From contig JAJRTK010000514.1 of the NCBI GenBank assembly GCA_024278345.1, forward strand, positions 1 through 12,229: a DNA stretch of 12,229 nt. Direction: 5' to 3'. Source of the DNA: a bacterium (GTDB lineage Bacteria > CSSED10-310 > JAJRTK01). This document shows, in pieces, positions 4,766 to 12,110 of the stretch. A program made the position numbers and the translations under genes. The notes beneath the pieces are model-generated. The model saw only the letters and a list, made by a program, of their open reading frames with translations. It searched no databases and was not told the DNA's origin. Each line of letters opens with the position of its first letter. Position 1 is the stretch's first letter.

Positions 4766-6451
4766 CTACTTCGAGGGGGGCGGGATTTCTTTGGGAAGCA
4801 AGAGTCCTTTTTCGGAGTAGAATCGAGCCTGATCCCGCTGCACCAGGAGATTGAAATAGCCGCCGCAGGCCTGAATGCTGGCCGGAGTATAGATTTTGCT
4901 CATCTGCTTGGCATTTTGCGGGTTGGCCAGGTAACCGATGAAGATGGAGGCGACGGCGGCATCGCGCAAAACGGCGTCCATGGGAAACTGGGTCATGGGA
5001 ACGGAGGTGATCTTGAGGATCTTACCGTAAATCCAGATGGGCGCCGCGGTCTCGATTCCGTTCCTCAGTTTGTATTTGCCATAAAGAACCGGTGAATCCC
5101 AGAGTTGGTGGGCGATTTCTCGATTGTTCAGGCCCACGAGATCGATCACTTGGATGGAGTCGGCAAAGAATTTCAATCGCTGGTAATCGCTTTGCGCCAC
5201 CGGTCCTTCGCCCACGATTCTTGCCAACTTGGAGCTGATTTCCTGGTCGCACCAGAAATCCTTTTCCAGGCCATGGGGCCAGGCGATGCGGTTTCGGGCC
5301 GAGGAGTTTTCCCAAACAAGGGCGCTCTGGGCAATCTGCCCAATGGTCAGGATGACGAGCAGTGCGATAGGGAGAAAACGGAGGCGGTTCATCCTGGCCG
5401 CGGCGACGATAAGGGTCGTGGGAAGAAAGAGTAATGGCAAGACAAGAAGACGGCTGCCGCGATAACAATCTCCCCCGCTGACGACGACCATGGCGAGGCT
5501 TCCCAGGGCGATGAATGCCAAAATCCCCACTTGCACCCGGCCATGGTGGTCCTTCCAGACCGGAAAGAAGAGCAAAAGAGGGACCCCCACGATGAGAAGG
5601 AGCTTCAGGGCGCCCAGCCCCGATTCCATCCGGGCGTAGGCACCCACGTACCGAAGTCCGTCCAGGATTTCGAGCCATCGGGAACTGGAGGTCTTGGCGA
5701 AGTAAGTGTTGGGTGCCACTGTCCCGAAGAGGCTCCAATGCCACGCCACATAGCCGATAATGGTTCCCAAAAGGAGAGCCGGGGGCATAAGGCGCCGGGT
5801 GACGGAGAGGTTTTTTCGGGTCCAAGACGCGACCGTCGCCAGGCCGAGGGCCAAGGGGATTCCTTCCGGCCGCGCCAGTGAAGTGGCTACCAGGAAAGAG
5901 GTTTCGGCAAGAAGAATCGGCCAGGAACGGCTGTTGAGCTGAAGACAGGACCAGGATGCCCAGAGGGTCACCAGCACGAAGAGAGGCCCTTCGAGAAGAT
6001 AGGCGGCGGATTCCGCCAGGCTTGGAGTGCTTCCCACGGCGAGGCCGGCGAGGAGAGCCATGGCCAAGATTCTGGATGCCGGCTGGCGCGTGTGGGCATG
6101 GATGGTGATGGCGATGGCGGTGGCAACGATGGCTGCAAACAGGAGGCACGTGAGCATCGAGATGGTGAAGATCGGATCCGCCGGAAAAAAATCGATGGCC
6201 AGCGCCTTGACAAGAACGTCTAGTAAACTGGTAAAACCGTCCAGAAAACCATCGGCCAGGTTCCAGTAAAACTTGCCTGAATCCAGGAAATGCCGAGCAT
6301 AGACCAGGACGATGAATGCGTCGTCGATGTTGCCGGGGTGTGCGGTCATCAAGTTCAAGAAAGCCGCGCCGGGAACGAGAAGAGCGCCCAAGAGGACGAG
6401 TCCAAGGTTGCCCGACTGAAAACGTTGTGACCGGCGATTTCCGCCTTTCAT
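4766..6451 (-). CDS. AftB-like GT-C family membrane glycosyltransferase
   Basis: This 561-residue polytopic protein has about ten hydrophobic segments and a C-terminal soluble region of roughly 150 residues. The first extracytoplasmic loop reads NIDDAFIVLVYARHF and then FLDGFTSLLD. This matches the DDAF...YARN...EGYT pattern of the AftB/GT89-type arabinofuranosyltransferases and related GT-C enzymes, in which the Asp pair (here Asp43-Asp44) is catalytic. These enzymes transfer a sugar from a polyprenyl-phosphate donor outside the membrane. The C-terminal phrase VIDLVGLNNREIA is also common in this family. The start at 6451 overlaps the upstream stop in an ATGA and follows GGGGAG at suitable spacing, indicating translational coupling; an alternative ATG lies 9 codons upstream. 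Donor and acceptor are unknown; mycobacterial-type arabinan is not implied. Confidence 0.75.
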   Translation of the reverse strand: MKGGNRRSQRFQSGNLGLVLLGALLVPGAAFLNLMTAHPGNIDDAFIVLVYARHFLDSGKFYWNLADGFLDGFTSLLDVLVKALAIDFFPADPIFTISMLTCLLFAAIVATAIAITIHAHTRQPASRILAMALLAGLAVGSTPSLAESAAYLLEGPLFVLVTLWASWSCLQLNSRSWPILLAETSFLVATSLARPEGIPLALGLATVASWTRKNLSVTRRLMPPALLLGTIIGYVAWHWSLFGTVAPNTYFAKTSSSRWLEILDGLRYVGAYARMESGLGALKLLLIVGVPLLLFFPVWKDHHGRVQVGILAFIALGSLAMVVVSGGDCYRGSRLLVLPLLFLPTTLIVAAARMNRLRFLPIALLVILTIGQIAQSALVWENSSARNRIAWPHGLEKDFWCDQEISSKLARIVGEGPVAQSDYQRLKFFADSIQVIDLVGLNNREIAHQLWDSPVLYGKYKLRNGIETAAPIWIYGKILKITSVPMTQFPMDAVLRDAAVASIFIGYLANPQNAKQMSKIYTPASIQACGGYFNLLVQRDQARFYSEKGLLLPKEIPPPSK

Positions 6452-8577
6452 TTCGGGCTCCCCTTCTTTTTCGTCCATGGCGTTTTGTAGACTCGGACGA
6501 ACGAGTCGGCATAGACGATCCCAAATGCCCTTGGCCTGGTGAGCACAGCGGCTTCCTGACGAGGGAACCGCCCGTAGTCGGGACTTGCACGGTCTCCGCT
6601 TTCTCGCGACACAATGATGTAGTCCGGCTGGAGGGAGACAATCTTTTTTCGCCATTCCTCCGCTGTCTGCGCCAAGCCCAAGGTCACCACCCGGTGCTGG
6701 AGGTGTGAACCGAAGAAGGGGTAGTTCCGAATGCCGATGGAGACCAGTAGCACCCGGTTGTCTTCGAGATCCTCGAGCCACGGGATGACCTGCGTGAAGC
6801 CCGAGTAGGTGTAGAATCGAGCTCGGCGAGCTTGTTGCATAGGGTGGAGGGCCATGGCAAGAAGGCCGAAAAGGAGGAGGCCAAGGTAGATGAATCCAAA
6901 CGGCTTTCGGGCTCGGCGGGCCTGAAACCAGCCGCTGGCGCGGGAAAGTCGGGAGGGACGGATGCACGGAAGGGCCAAAGAGAGCATCGATAGGATCCCG
7001 AACAACAAGCTCTCTTGCATTCCCCACCGCGCTGAGGGTGTTAGAAAATTGGCCACGACACCCAGGGCGGGAAGCCACAGGAAGCCTTTTCCCGGGTGGG
7101 TGACGCTGGTGAGCAAGAGGGCGGCCAGGAGGAAAAACGGCAGGGCGTACCGGAGCGAGCGCCCCCGATAGACCTGGTTCAAGGCGCCGGGGATGTTTTC
7201 CACGCAGAGAGGGGTCAGAGCGAAAATGAGTCCACAGCCAAAGAGTAGAAGGAGGAGGGGGCTGATCTGGAGAGCCCGTTGGCCACGGGCAGGCTTACGT
7301 CCCATCAACCAGGAAATGATCGCCAGGAAGCAGAGTACGAGGCTCGGCCACGCAAGTTGGAGAAACCAGTTCCCGAAACCGAAAAGCGCTTCCATCCCTC
7401 TTGCGTTCCCCCAAAGCGTGCTGGTGCGGAGAAACTCCTGGGTAACGCCACTCGCCGAGCCCACCACCAGGCTCATATCCCCCGGAGGAATCTGCAAGGG
7501 TCCCAGATCCACACCCGCCGGGTAGACGGGGTTACCGGTCAAAACCAGATTTCGGATGAAGAAGCTTCCTCCAAGAAGAAGGCCGGTGGCAACGATGGGG
7601 ACTCCATGGCGTAGCAGCCATTTCCAGAGCTTACGGGGCCAGTGCCATGCCGCGACGAATGCCAACCCCAAAGCATAGGCCACGCCGTTGTACTTGGTCC
7701 CGACCAGGAGGGAAGCAGAGGCGATGGCCAGAAGGGCTGGAGCCCCGGGCCGCACGGATTCCCTGGCCTGGGCGATGAAGTAGAGCGCCAAAAGAAAAAG
7801 CATGGCAAGAAACAGATCGTTGCCAAGCTCACCAAGGCTTCGGCGGAACAGCGGAGTCGTCGCCACAAGAACGGCCGAACCCAGGCTTGCCCACGCCGAG
7901 AGCCCTTGCATCCGCATCAAACGTCCAAGGGCCAGGACCAGGACGAGCCAGTAGACGCTATCGGAAACCCCGATGACGGCATCACCGCGGAACGGAAGCA
8001 TCAAGATCGCCAGGAGGAGTTCGGAATTGCCAGGGTAGAACCAGGCACGAACATCTTGTGCCCAGATGGTTCCTTCGCGGCACCATTGCGCCGCCATGGG
8101 CAGGTGATAGGCAAGCCCGTCACCGGAAAGCGGGGGATTGGAAAGGGCCTGGAAGAGACTGACAAAGAACACGCTGACCAGAGCCCCAAAGAAAAGCAGA
8201 ACTGGGATCCAGGTTGTCCTCCTCGCCGCGCTCTCCGGAGTTTTCAGAAACTGGGCCGATGGTCGCGTACCCGTTTTCCTCGGTGGTTTCTCCCTTTTTG
8301 GGGCGTCGGGCAAACCGGTGGCGGTGGCCACAGCGGCAAGGGACAAAACGAAGATCATCTGCCAGACGGCAAACTGGCCGATCCAAAGCAGGAGTAAAGC
8401 TGCCCCCAAGAGCAAGCTCAGGCCAAAGGCAAAGCCGTGGAGAAGGCGGTCCCAGAGCTCCTGAATGCCGATGAAATCGCAGACCCGACTGGCGAACCAA
8501 CCCGCCGCCAAAAGCATCGCGAAAAGTTTGAGCAGCGACCACGAAAAGGGGACCGCCCATTGGAACCACGAAGGCAT
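6448..8577 (-). CDS. GT-C/PMT-type integral membrane glycosyltransferase
   Basis: This 709-residue protein has a dozen or so hydrophobic segments and a C-terminal soluble domain of about 120 residues ending in the cytoplasm or periplasm. After the third or fourth helix comes SGDGLAYHLPMAAQW, followed by AWFYPGNSELL. An acidic residue in this first large loop (here Asp153) and the YHLP/YPG context are typical of dolichyl- or undecaprenyl-phosphate-sugar-dependent PMT_2/ArnT-like transferases. A Lys/Arg/Pro-rich cytoplasmic loop (residues about 90-122) separates the first helices from this core. GAGGAG lies 5-6 nt before the start at 8577. The gene overlaps the AftB-like gene by 4 bp, so the two are probably one transcriptional unit acting on the same glycan or lipid. 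The sugar is not identifiable. Confidence 0.72.
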   Translation of the reverse strand: MPSWFQWAVPFSWSLLKLFAMLLAAGWFASRVCDFIGIQELWDRLLHGFAFGLSLLLGAALLLLWIGQFAVWQMIFVLSLAAVATATGLPDAPKREKPPRKTGTRPSAQFLKTPESAARRTTWIPVLLFFGALVSVFFVSLFQALSNPPLSGDGLAYHLPMAAQWCREGTIWAQDVRAWFYPGNSELLLAILMLPFRGDAVIGVSDSVYWLVLVLALGRLMRMQGLSAWASLGSAVLVATTPLFRRSLGELGNDLFLAMLFLLALYFIAQARESVRPGAPALLAIASASLLVGTKYNGVAYALGLAFVAAWHWPRKLWKWLLRHGVPIVATGLLLGGSFFIRNLVLTGNPVYPAGVDLGPLQIPPGDMSLVVGSASGVTQEFLRTSTLWGNARGMEALFGFGNWFLQLAWPSLVLCFLAIISWLMGRKPARGQRALQISPLLLLLFGCGLIFALTPLCVENIPGALNQVYRGRSLRYALPFFLLAALLLTSVTHPGKGFLWLPALGVVANFLTPSARWGMQESLLFGILSMLSLALPCIRPSRLSRASGWFQARRARKPFGFIYLGLLLFGLLAMALHPMQQARRARFYTYSGFTQVIPWLEDLEDNRVLLVSIGIRNYPFFGSHLQHRVVTLGLAQTAEEWRKKIVSLQPDYIIVSRESGDRASPDYGRFPRQEAAVLTRPRAFGIVYADSFVRVYKTPWTKKKGSPK

Positions 8578-8784: not shown

Positions 8785-9135
8785 TCATCGCTCGTCGTCG
8801 TTGGGGTCTTCGGGCTCTTTGGGCAGCTCGGGCTCCGCGATCTCCTCAAGCCGCTTTCTTGTCCGCTCGTTGATCTCTCTCACCTGTTTTCTCTGGCGTT
8901 CCAGGATCGGCGCGTTGGCGACCTTGGCTTCGCGATCTTCGCAACCGGTGAGCCCCACCAGGAGGGGGAAGAGAAAGAGGCTGAGCACCACCGGGATGAG
9001 GCCCGATTTTCTTCTTCGTGATGGCGCTGCCGCCCGGTGACGCGGATCTCCAGTGAGGAGGGAAGACGGAGGCCGAAGAGTAGAAACGGATCTGAAGCTC
9101 GGCCTGGCAATCGGTGGATGGGTGAGTTGTTTCAT
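8785..9135 (-). CDS. Small predicted lipoprotein of unknown function
   Basis: This 116-residue protein has a clear hydrophobic segment, GLIPVVLSLFLFPLLVGL, ending in the lipobox LTGC, with Cys65 as predicted lipidation site. The mature part is only 52 residues: a charged helix likely to be coiled coil (ILERQRKQVREINERTRKRLEEI) and a Pro/Glu/Asp-rich acidic end. The unusual point is the 45-residue Arg/Pro/Ser-rich stretch before the hydrophobic segment, far longer than a normal n-region. No ATG, GTG or TTG codon in this frame gives a shorter start, so either the leader is real or initiation uses a rarer codon. GGAGAGG lies about 6 nt before the ATG at 9135. It sits 59 bp downstream of glgB and 207 bp before the GT-C pair. 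I do not recognise a family. Confidence 0.6.
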   Translation of the reverse strand: MKQLTHPPIARPSFRSVSTLRPPSSLLTGDPRHRAAAPSRRRKSGLIPVVLSLFLFPLLVGLTGCEDREAKVANAPILERQRKQVREINERTRKRLEEIAEPELPKEPEDPNDDER

Positions 9136-9194: not shown

Positions 9195-11642
9195 TCAGGA
9201 CTTTCGGCGCCGCTGAGCCCGCCGCCGTTTCCGGCGTCGTTTGGCCGCCTTCGCCATGGCCACGGCTTTTTCCTTGCGCCGCTCTCTCTTTGGGTCTTTC
9301 TTGGCATCCCCTGTCTCTCCGGGCGCTTCTCCTTTGGTTTCGTGCCTTTCCGTGGATGCGGTATCTTCCGCCTCCGCTACTGTCTCTTTGATCTCGCCGG
9401 CACCGGGAGCTGACTCCGCGGTGACTTCTCTAGCGGCTTCAGCCCTTTCCGCGCCGGCTTCCTCCGCGGCTTCAGCCCTTTCCGCGCCGGCTTCCTCCGC
9501 GGCTTCAGCCCTTTCCGCGCCGGCTTCCTCCGCGGCCTCAGCCCTTTCCGCGCCGGCTTCCTCCGCGGCTTCAGCCCTTTCCGCGCCGCCTCTTTCCTTC
9601 AGGGGCGGTTCAGCAGCCTTTTCCGTCCGGGCAAGGGCTTGGGCTTGGGCAAGGTTTTTCTCCACCAGCGCCTTGTACTGCTTCTCCAGATCCGTGGGCT
9701 CAGGCTCGGGAAGCTCCACGGGCTCCGGAAAGCTGTTCTTGAAGTAAAGCACTCCCAGAGGCGGTAACGTCAACTCCACCGAATAGGGATATCCGTGGAG
9801 CGGCTTCGGTTTCGGCTCGATCTTGCCCATGTTGCCCAGCCCGCAACCGGCGTAAGCTTCGGCTTCACTATTCAGGATCTCTATCCAATCACTCCCCCGG
9901 GGAACTCCAAGCTCATATCCCATCCTGGGAACCGGAGTGAAGTTGCAGACGGCCAAAATCAACACATCGGACCCAGGGGCACGCCGGAGAAAGCTGACAA
10001 CGCTTTTTTCGGCATCATGGCAATCGAGCCACTGAAAGCCAAAAGGCAAAAAATCCGCCTCGTGCATGGCCGGCTCCTCCCGGTAGAGCCGGTTGAGGTC
10101 TTCCACCCACTTCCGCACTCCCTCATGACTCGCATAGTGCAACAAATGCCAGTCCAGTTGGGACTCGTGGTTCCATTCTTTCACCTGGGCAAGTTCCTGG
10201 CCCATGAAGAGCAGCTTTTTGCCCGGCGTTCCATACATGTAGCCGTAAAGGAGCTTCAGATGGGCGAATTTCTGGTCCCAGCTCCCGGCCATCTTCCCAA
10301 GAAGTGACGCTTTGCCGTGGACCACTTCGTCGTGAGAGAGAGACAGAACGAAGTCCTCAGAATAGGCGTACATCATCCGGAACGTCAGCTTCTGGTGGTG
10401 GAACTTCCGGAAGATGGGATCCATCTTCAGGTAGTTCAGAGTATCGTGCATCCAGCCCATGTCCCACTTCATGTCGAAGCCCAGTCCTCCCACATAAGTA
10501 GGCCTCGAAACCATGGGCCACGAAGTCGAGTCCTCGGCGATGGTCAAAACGCCCGGAAACTCCTTGTGCAGCTCTTCGTTCAAGCGCCGGAGGAACTGGA
10601 TCGCCTCCAGGTTCTCCCTACCTCCGAACTCGTTGGGAAGCCACTCTCCATCCTTCCTGGAATAGTCCAGGTGGAGCATCGAAGCCACCGCGTCGATGCG
10701 AAAACCATCCAGGTGGTACTTATCGACCCAGAACATGGCGCTGGAAATGAGAAAGCTCCGAACCTCGCCCAACCCATAGTTGAAGATAAAGCTCTTCCAG
10801 TCGGGATGGAAACCCTTCCTGGGATCCGCGTGCTCATAGAGATGCGTCCCATTGAAATAGCCGATCCCATGTCCATCCGTGGGGAAATGAGATGGCACCC
10901 AGTCCAGAAGGACCCCGATCCCTCGCCGGTGCAGAATCTCCACGAAGGCCATGAAGTCCCGCGGAGTCCCGTAACGGCTGGTGGGCGCGAAGTAGCCCGT
11001 CGTCTGATACCCCCACGACCCATAAAAAGGATGCTCCGTAATGGGCAAGAGCTCCACGTGGGTGAACCCCATCCGCTCCACGTAATCGGCAAGCCGCCCA
11101 CCCAGCTCCCGGTAGGAAAGGTGGCTTCCGTCCGCCCACCGACGCCACGACCCAAGATGCACCTCGTAGATGGACATGGCGTCTTTCTTGGCCGACCGTG
11201 TCGTGCGCCCCAACATCCAGTCATCGTCTTCCCACTCATAGTCCAGATCCCACACGATGGACGCTGTGCTAGGAGGAAGCTCCGCATGGAAAGCAAACGG
11301 ATCCGACTTATCGATCTCATAGCCCCCAGGCGCGGAAATATGGTACTTGTACCGAGTCGAGCCAGGCCGAAGCCCCGGAACAAATCCCGCCCAAATCCCC
11401 GACTCGCCCTGGGGAAAAAGAGAATGCGCCCGAAGATCCCAGCCATTGAAATCCCCAAGAACCGAAACACTCCTGGCCATGGGCGCCCACACCGCAAAGT
11501 GAACCCCCTCGGTCCCCTCCATTCGCAAAGGATGCGCCCCAAGCTTCTCATAAAGGCGAAAATGCGACCCTTCGTTGAAAAGGTAGAGGTCCATCTCCGT
11601 CAACAGGCTGTTCCCAGGCGGCAGTGTCGTGGCAGGGATCAT
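9195..11642 (-). CDS. glgB: 1,4-alpha-glucan branching enzyme GlgB with repeat-rich, basic C-terminal extension
   Basis: This 815-residue cytoplasmic enzyme makes alpha-1,6 branches in glycogen. A CBM48-type N-terminal domain (LYLFNEGSHFRLYEKLGAH, VLGDFNGWD) leads into a GH13 barrel with all catalytic residues: nucleophile Asp317 in DGFRID, acid/base Glu370 in TIAED and Asp438 in LSHDEVVHG. The all-beta C-terminal domain ends near residue 636 (GVLYFKN). The start at 11642 follows GGGAG by 7 nt and matches the family's usual N-terminus without the extra N1 domain; a longer frame to 11801 adds an unlikely leader. About 180 further residues are not part of GlgB: a Pro/Glu spacer, 4.7 copies of GAERAEAAEEA (residues about 686-737), an acidic linker, and a 35-residue tail dominated by Arg and Lys (KRRRKRRRAQRRRKS at the end). 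The first gene of the leftward series; no other glycogen genes are present. Confidence 0.97.
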   Translation of the reverse strand: MIPATTLPPGNSLLTEMDLYLFNEGSHFRLYEKLGAHPLRMEGTEGVHFAVWAPMARSVSVLGDFNGWDLRAHSLFPQGESGIWAGFVPGLRPGSTRYKYHISAPGGYEIDKSDPFAFHAELPPSTASIVWDLDYEWEDDDWMLGRTTRSAKKDAMSIYEVHLGSWRRWADGSHLSYRELGGRLADYVERMGFTHVELLPITEHPFYGSWGYQTTGYFAPTSRYGTPRDFMAFVEILHRRGIGVLLDWVPSHFPTDGHGIGYFNGTHLYEHADPRKGFHPDWKSFIFNYGLGEVRSFLISSAMFWVDKYHLDGFRIDAVASMLHLDYSRKDGEWLPNEFGGRENLEAIQFLRRLNEELHKEFPGVLTIAEDSTSWPMVSRPTYVGGLGFDMKWDMGWMHDTLNYLKMDPIFRKFHHQKLTFRMMYAYSEDFVLSLSHDEVVHGKASLLGKMAGSWDQKFAHLKLLYGYMYGTPGKKLLFMGQELAQVKEWNHESQLDWHLLHYASHEGVRKWVEDLNRLYREEPAMHEADFLPFGFQWLDCHDAEKSVVSFLRRAPGSDVLILAVCNFTPVPRMGYELGVPRGSDWIEILNSEAEAYAGCGLGNMGKIEPKPKPLHGYPYSVELTLPPLGVLYFKNSFPEPVELPEPEPTDLEKQYKALVEKNLAQAQALARTEKAAEPPLKERGGAERAEAAEEAGAERAEAAEEAGAERAEAAEEAGAERAEAAEEAGAERAEAAREVTAESAPGAGEIKETVAEAEDTASTERHETKGEAPGETGDAKKDPKRERRKEKAVAMAKAAKRRRKRRRAQRRRKS
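9433..9588 (-). repeat. 33-bp in-frame tandem repeat within the glgB 3' end, 4.7 copies
   Basis: Units start at 9433, 9466, 9499, 9532 and 9565; the last is cut short after 24 bp. All are identical except for one T-to-C change at 9537 in the fourth unit, which is synonymous (GAA to GAG) in glgB. Each unit encodes GAERAEAAEEA in GlgB. Near-identity at the DNA level points to recent expansion or homogenisation, so copy number may differ between strains. Confidence 0.95.
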
Positions 11643-12110
11643 GAAACATCTCCCAGGAAAGAATCCGGCGGCCGGCAACACGGATGATTTCGTGGCGGAT
11701 TCTCCTCCCATCGCGGCGGCCGCATCCAAAGGGTCCAACGCTTCCCTATCAGCACACCGGCAATCTCTCAACAGGGAACTCGACGTTCCAAGCAATTTCA
11801 AGAAGGCTCAGTGTTGAGTTCCGCTCACGCTCCTCGCGGCCGCTCGGATCCCTCGCCCAACTTCCCGCCAATCCCGGGCGGTAACACCGCCAAGGCGGCC
11901 TTGGTCATCGGTGGTGCCTTCGGCAGCTCTGGATTCCGTTGGCACCGCGAATCCGGATCCGCCGGGTTTCCGCTTCCTCCCAACCTTGATCCGCACGCTC
12001 CAACTCCCGTTCCTCCCGCGCTGGCGGTCCCAGCTCGATGGTGGTGGGCTGCGGACCACCGGGTCGGCCATCCGCTGAGTTCCCTGGAACCTGCACCGAG
12101 GGGACCTATC

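Follow-up and report, generated by a model that had tools for sequence, protein, structure and literature searches.

The glgB gene in the window, that is, the whole stretch of 12,229 nucleotides that was analysed and the entire contig C460 of the host genome, encodes what is, judged by its sequence, an ordinary and intact glycogen branching enzyme with every catalytic residue present. The long tail that follows the enzyme is probably a low-complexity extension of the C-terminus, specific to its lineage, in which the repeats arose by in-frame tandem duplication. The gene lies on the minus strand, from 11603 to a stop codon at 9195–9197, within an enclosing open reading frame (ORF; 9195–11801, minus strand) that is open from start to stop. 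Reading from 11603 yields a protein of 802 residues, in which the body ends at residue 623 and a 179-residue tail continues in the same frame, in agreement with the original prediction that the frame runs on for about 180 residues. That prediction also had the catalytic enzyme complete by about residue 636; the completeness holds, while the position moves to 623 in the 11603 reading and depends on the start codon.

Analysis of the body revealed Pfam matches to CBM_48, Alpha-amylase, and Alpha-amylase_C, with all Pfam and NCBIfam domains of GlgB falling inside residues 1–622. The protein scored 946.9 bits against the NCBIfam GlgB equivalog NF003811 (cut-off 741) and 885.9 bits against TIGR01515 (cut-off 463.95). 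Residues D304, E357, and D425, which we take to be the Asp/Glu/Asp catalytic triad of GH13, are invariant across 25 aligned sequences, and the PDB matches of the body reach E values of about 1e-230. Known GlgB enzymes of GH13 (PDB 6joy, 1m7x, and 5gqw) match it over the full length of the body, sharing its catalytic residues, its CBM48, and its beta domain. Branching enzymes normally stop at the beta domain, as had been noted, whereas the host protein ends 179 residues later, in a tail with no homologue in the examined relatives. The glycogen synthase GlgA is present in the genome as two pieces (L253 and L254, on contigs C130 and C229), suggesting that GlgB probably serves the normal glycogen pathway. 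The two GlgA pieces are probably one gene broken up by assembly.

The tail is composed of four segments (Table 1), and an example peptide within it is ETVAEAEDTASTER. The spacer, array, and linker together carry a net charge of −23 over 142 residues, followed by the opposite charge of the 37-residue basic end, giving about −6 for the whole tail, while the net charge of the body is −20. AlphaFold2, run on a shallow alignment of 25 sequences that also yielded a poor model for some of the catalytic body, placed the last body strand at residues 617–623 and the disordered linker at approximately 724–769. In addition to the helices listed in Table 1, it predicted a helix at residues 676–728, in line with the long helices expected from the 11-residue repeats, but with low confidence (approximately 40–60 for this helix, compared with 60–80 for the basic end).

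Table 1. Segments of the host GlgB and examples of other in-frame arrays in the host genome
Feature	Position	Strand	Basis
GlgB body (CBM48, GH13 catalytic barrel, all-beta C-terminal domain), residues 1–623	9735..11603	-	Pfam, NCBIfam, alignment
Pro/Glu spacer, then predicted helix (638–663), residues 624–672	9588..9734	-	composition, AlphaFold2
33-bp in-frame minisatellite, 4.7 copies, GAERAEAAEEA, residues 673–724	9432..9587	-	TRF, repeat counts
Acidic linker, predicted disordered, net −7, residues 725–765	9309..9431	-	composition, AlphaFold2
Basic C-terminal segment, 21/37 Lys/Arg, net +17, predicted helix 771–801, residues 766–802	9198..9308	-	composition, codon usage, AlphaFold2
In-frame coding arrays elsewhere (examples)	L162:16-529, L252:8313-9778, L155:1085-1173, L226:6073-6231, L141:1-179

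No family was found for the tail in Pfam even at E ≤ 10, and a PDB search with the tail gave no match. The possibility that a gene or domain lying downstream had been fused to the enzyme was rejected, as a homologue of the tail is absent from the genome, the phylum, Pfam, NCBIfam, and the PDB. A mobile or plasmid origin was likewise set aside after a search, limited by its low-complexity filter, gave no plasmid match. The literature searched, consisting of open-licence papers only, contained no report of C-terminal tails on GlgB. The tail is real and is most likely an ordinary low-complexity extension, not a new domain.

TRF located the 33-bp array at 9433–9588, with 98% matches and a score of 305, far beyond chance expectation, and the copy number of 4.7 bears out the almost five repeats of the original count. 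Copies 1–4 differ by one synonymous base, and copy 5 diverges at its end. As the unit is a multiple of three, the length of the tail can change while the frame is kept. The near-identical copies, the period divisible by three, the location within an ORF, and the lack of the array in orthologues mark it as a lineage-specific coding minisatellite. Neither the tail nor the unit recurs within the host genome, and no other copy of the unit was found there within 3 mismatches.

Of every 11 residues in the array, 5 are Ala and 4 are Glu, and both this Ala/Glu richness and the 11-residue period are shared with the 11-mers of LEA group 3 proteins (LEA_4). Unlike LEA_4, the array has no Pfam match, no pairing of Arg or Lys with Glu at i+3 or i+4, and a low hydrophobic moment. 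The counts gave zero Glu-Arg pairs at these spacings, where Glu-Glu pairs number 9 and 8 (17 in total), and a weak hydrophobic moment of 0.16, indicating that the array does not form a single alpha-helix of the salt-bridged type and is not an amphipathic 11-mer either. The alternating charge originally read into the repeat is therefore not seen at helical spacing, and the suggested likeness to LEA-type or apolipoprotein 11-mers, including kinship with LEA group 3, was abandoned, the tail having no LEA profile match.

To place the tail among relatives, we compared the ends of about 125 GlgB proteins, which stop 0–44 residues after the body, none with a comparable tail. Among the 80 closest GlgBs of genome_contigs, the protein runs 0–32 residues past the body and none (0 of 80) has such a tail; none of the approximately 45 distinct others has one either. 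The 28 GlgBs from a wider search extend by at most 25 residues. Two closely alignable GlgBs of the same phylum end 6 and 44 residues past the body. The 44-residue end, in the phylum relative G003 (L008), is Ala/Gly-rich and unrelated to the tail. The phylum is thinly sampled, with 8 genomes in the collection used, of which one is the host and the others come from outside its genus and family, so the absence in relatives demonstrates lineage-specificity only. The absence in close relatives that was named as a possible refutation is thus found in the GlgBs examined, while members of the same genus and family lie outside the sample. At the resolution of these genomes, and as far as sequence comparison reaches, the tail is private to its lineage.

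Analysis of the host genome indicated that arrays of the kind seen in GlgB form a class that is common there. At a TRF score of at least 150, 30 arrays were detected in 1.25 Mb of the host genome (23.9 per Mb), compared with 2 arrays in 0.67 Mb (3.0 per Mb) of control loci, which come from 80 other genomes, are confined to the surroundings of glgB genes, and do not amount to a matched sample. At a score of at least 100, the period is divisible by three in 28 of the 39 arrays, where one third is expected (binomial p ~1e-6). An end of the analysed stretch is touched by 12 of the 39, and with so many arrays at stretch or contig ends, copy numbers in the assembly need caution. In-frame tandem arrays with units of 27, 45, 57, and 69 bp, among others, enrich the genome, often at contig ends. 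Several arrays code Ala/Glu/Lys-rich stretches on proteins with conserved domains, namely a Uma2 nuclease carrying AEEAAQK/AEETAQK four times, a cyclophilin carrying PAEAKPEAK repeats, and a TPR protein, and a RAEAEKE array stands at one contig end. These Uma2, cyclophilin, and TPR minisatellites resemble the GlgB array in that the period is a multiple of three, the copies are alike, and the products are rich in Ala/Glu/Lys, but the GlgB unit differs in sequence and is unique in the genome. The host ribosomal protein S2 bears an Ala/Glu/Pro-rich C-terminal extension, and Ala/Glu-rich regions are the commonest low-complexity type on bacterial ribosomal proteins (PMC6821194). The GlgB array is similar in composition to such regions on S2 and S16, but it is located on a metabolic enzyme and is followed by a strongly basic end. 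Because in-frame minisatellites are abundant in the genome, the origin of the GlgB repeat is ordinary, and this origin is well supported. This unusual genome-wide richness in in-frame arrays may deserve more interest than the tail of GlgB.

These observations suggest that recent tandem duplication of the 33-bp unit, by slippage or unequal exchange, would have built the repeat part of the tail. The product would probably be an acidic, Ala/Glu-rich arm, partly or weakly helical, with a basic hook at its tip that the arm may hold away from the body. We infer that the hook probably contacts polyanions (nucleic acid, ribosome, or polyphosphate) weakly and non-specifically, or the acidic surfaces of GlgB itself, and that any effect on localisation or self-association would be modest at most. 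If the tail is idle, it would still illustrate cleanly how a coding minisatellite can lengthen a conserved enzyme, with the core untouched, in a repeat-rich genome.

The basic end, which is not built from the 33-bp repeat, is the part of the tail most likely to matter. The count of 21 Lys or Arg among 37 residues confirmed the original estimate of about half, and this C-terminus ranks first in Lys/Arg content among 1050 sampled ORFs; compared with 512 longer ORFs, it also holds the 37-residue stretch richest in Lys/Arg. As the basic end is beyond neutral-drift expectation in this proteome and not repeat-derived, selection may have acted on part of the tail, which counts against reading the whole as an ordinary low-complexity extension. 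The likeness to histone H1-like tails did not extend to family membership, since the basic segment searched alone matched no Pfam family and no PDB match was found for the tail, and sharing of the basic tail across the genome was confined to weak, chance-level matches. A survey of prokaryotic low-complexity regions linked Lys/Arg-rich ones to nucleic-acid binding and tied Lys-rich ones to this role in other bacterial proteins, citing the lysine-repeat C-terminus of Streptomyces topoisomerase I (PMC6821194). The latter is likewise an enzyme with a basic low-complexity C-terminal tail, but the GlgB tail is a mix of Arg and Lys without lysine repeats, and the substrate of GlgB is not DNA.

This composition, the long acidic spacer before it, and the nucleic-acid binding of Lys-rich regions elsewhere would fit a selected tether, in which nucleic acid, ribosomes, or polyphosphate are bound by the basic end, with the repeat serving as spacer, so that glycogen synthesis is kept at a defined site in the cell. 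We regard this reading as unlikely, since the tail is missing from every relative examined and matches no family, and its net negative charge may let the acidic part mask the basic end. It appears decidedly improbable that this poorly sampled phylum contains a branching enzyme whose tail functionally binds polyanions, is carried on a repeat arm of tunable length, and couples the making of glycogen to the nucleoid, ribosomes, or polyphosphate. If the tail did work, it would show how replication slippage can provide an enzyme of central metabolism with an electrostatic anchor that is adjustable. The strong charge segregation, from −23 to +17, would also suit a block polyampholyte, in which the acidic arms and basic hooks of neighbouring GlgBs attract each other and form oligomers or condensates clustering the enzyme on glycogen, but segregation by itself is no proof of self-association and the relatives lend no support, leaving this idea with little probability. 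The preferred reading of a low-complexity extension describes a known enzyme lengthened by a known route, with the basic end as the part deserving attention.

Codon likelihoods, based on usage in the host genome and compared over six frames per tail segment, were highest for frame 0 in all three parts compared (spacer, array, and remainder); in the control, frame 0 was best in 221 of 228 ORF ends. The antisense frame is close behind in the tail, and with this small margin, the likelihoods support coding but do not prove it. The antisense ORF at 9241–9747 (plus strand) was rejected as a real gene, having no Pfam match and a codon likelihood below that of the sense frame. The codon bias runs straight past 9730 without interruption at the body end, making the read-through of a lost stop there, raised earlier as a refutation, unlikely. 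An artefact in which an assembly or sequencing error erased that stop, or in which a chimeric contig attached a tail foreign to GlgB, draws on the fragmented genome (550 contigs, 87.9% complete) and on the arrays at contig ends, which may mean a miscounted GlgB copy number, but is very improbable given that frame 0 is favoured right after the body and in every segment, that the tail stops about 60 bases short of a co-oriented ORF, and that the array period preserves the frame at any copy number.

Several further features were observed in the window and genome. A small ORF just downstream of glgB (8785–9135, minus strand) has a lipoprotein-like LTGC motif, a charged C-terminus, and no family match. 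Two large hydrophobic proteins without Pfam match are encoded at 4766–6391 and 6448–8577 (minus strand), the latter bearing a weak likeness to membrane proteins of the LIC_10190 family, with a score of 39.1 bits that falls short of the cut-off. On two other contigs, 83-bp tandem units (L157:9653-9854 and L218:5439-5610) have a related core in common, ACGCCCGTGG and then ACACC, and possibly represent a dispersed non-coding repeat family.
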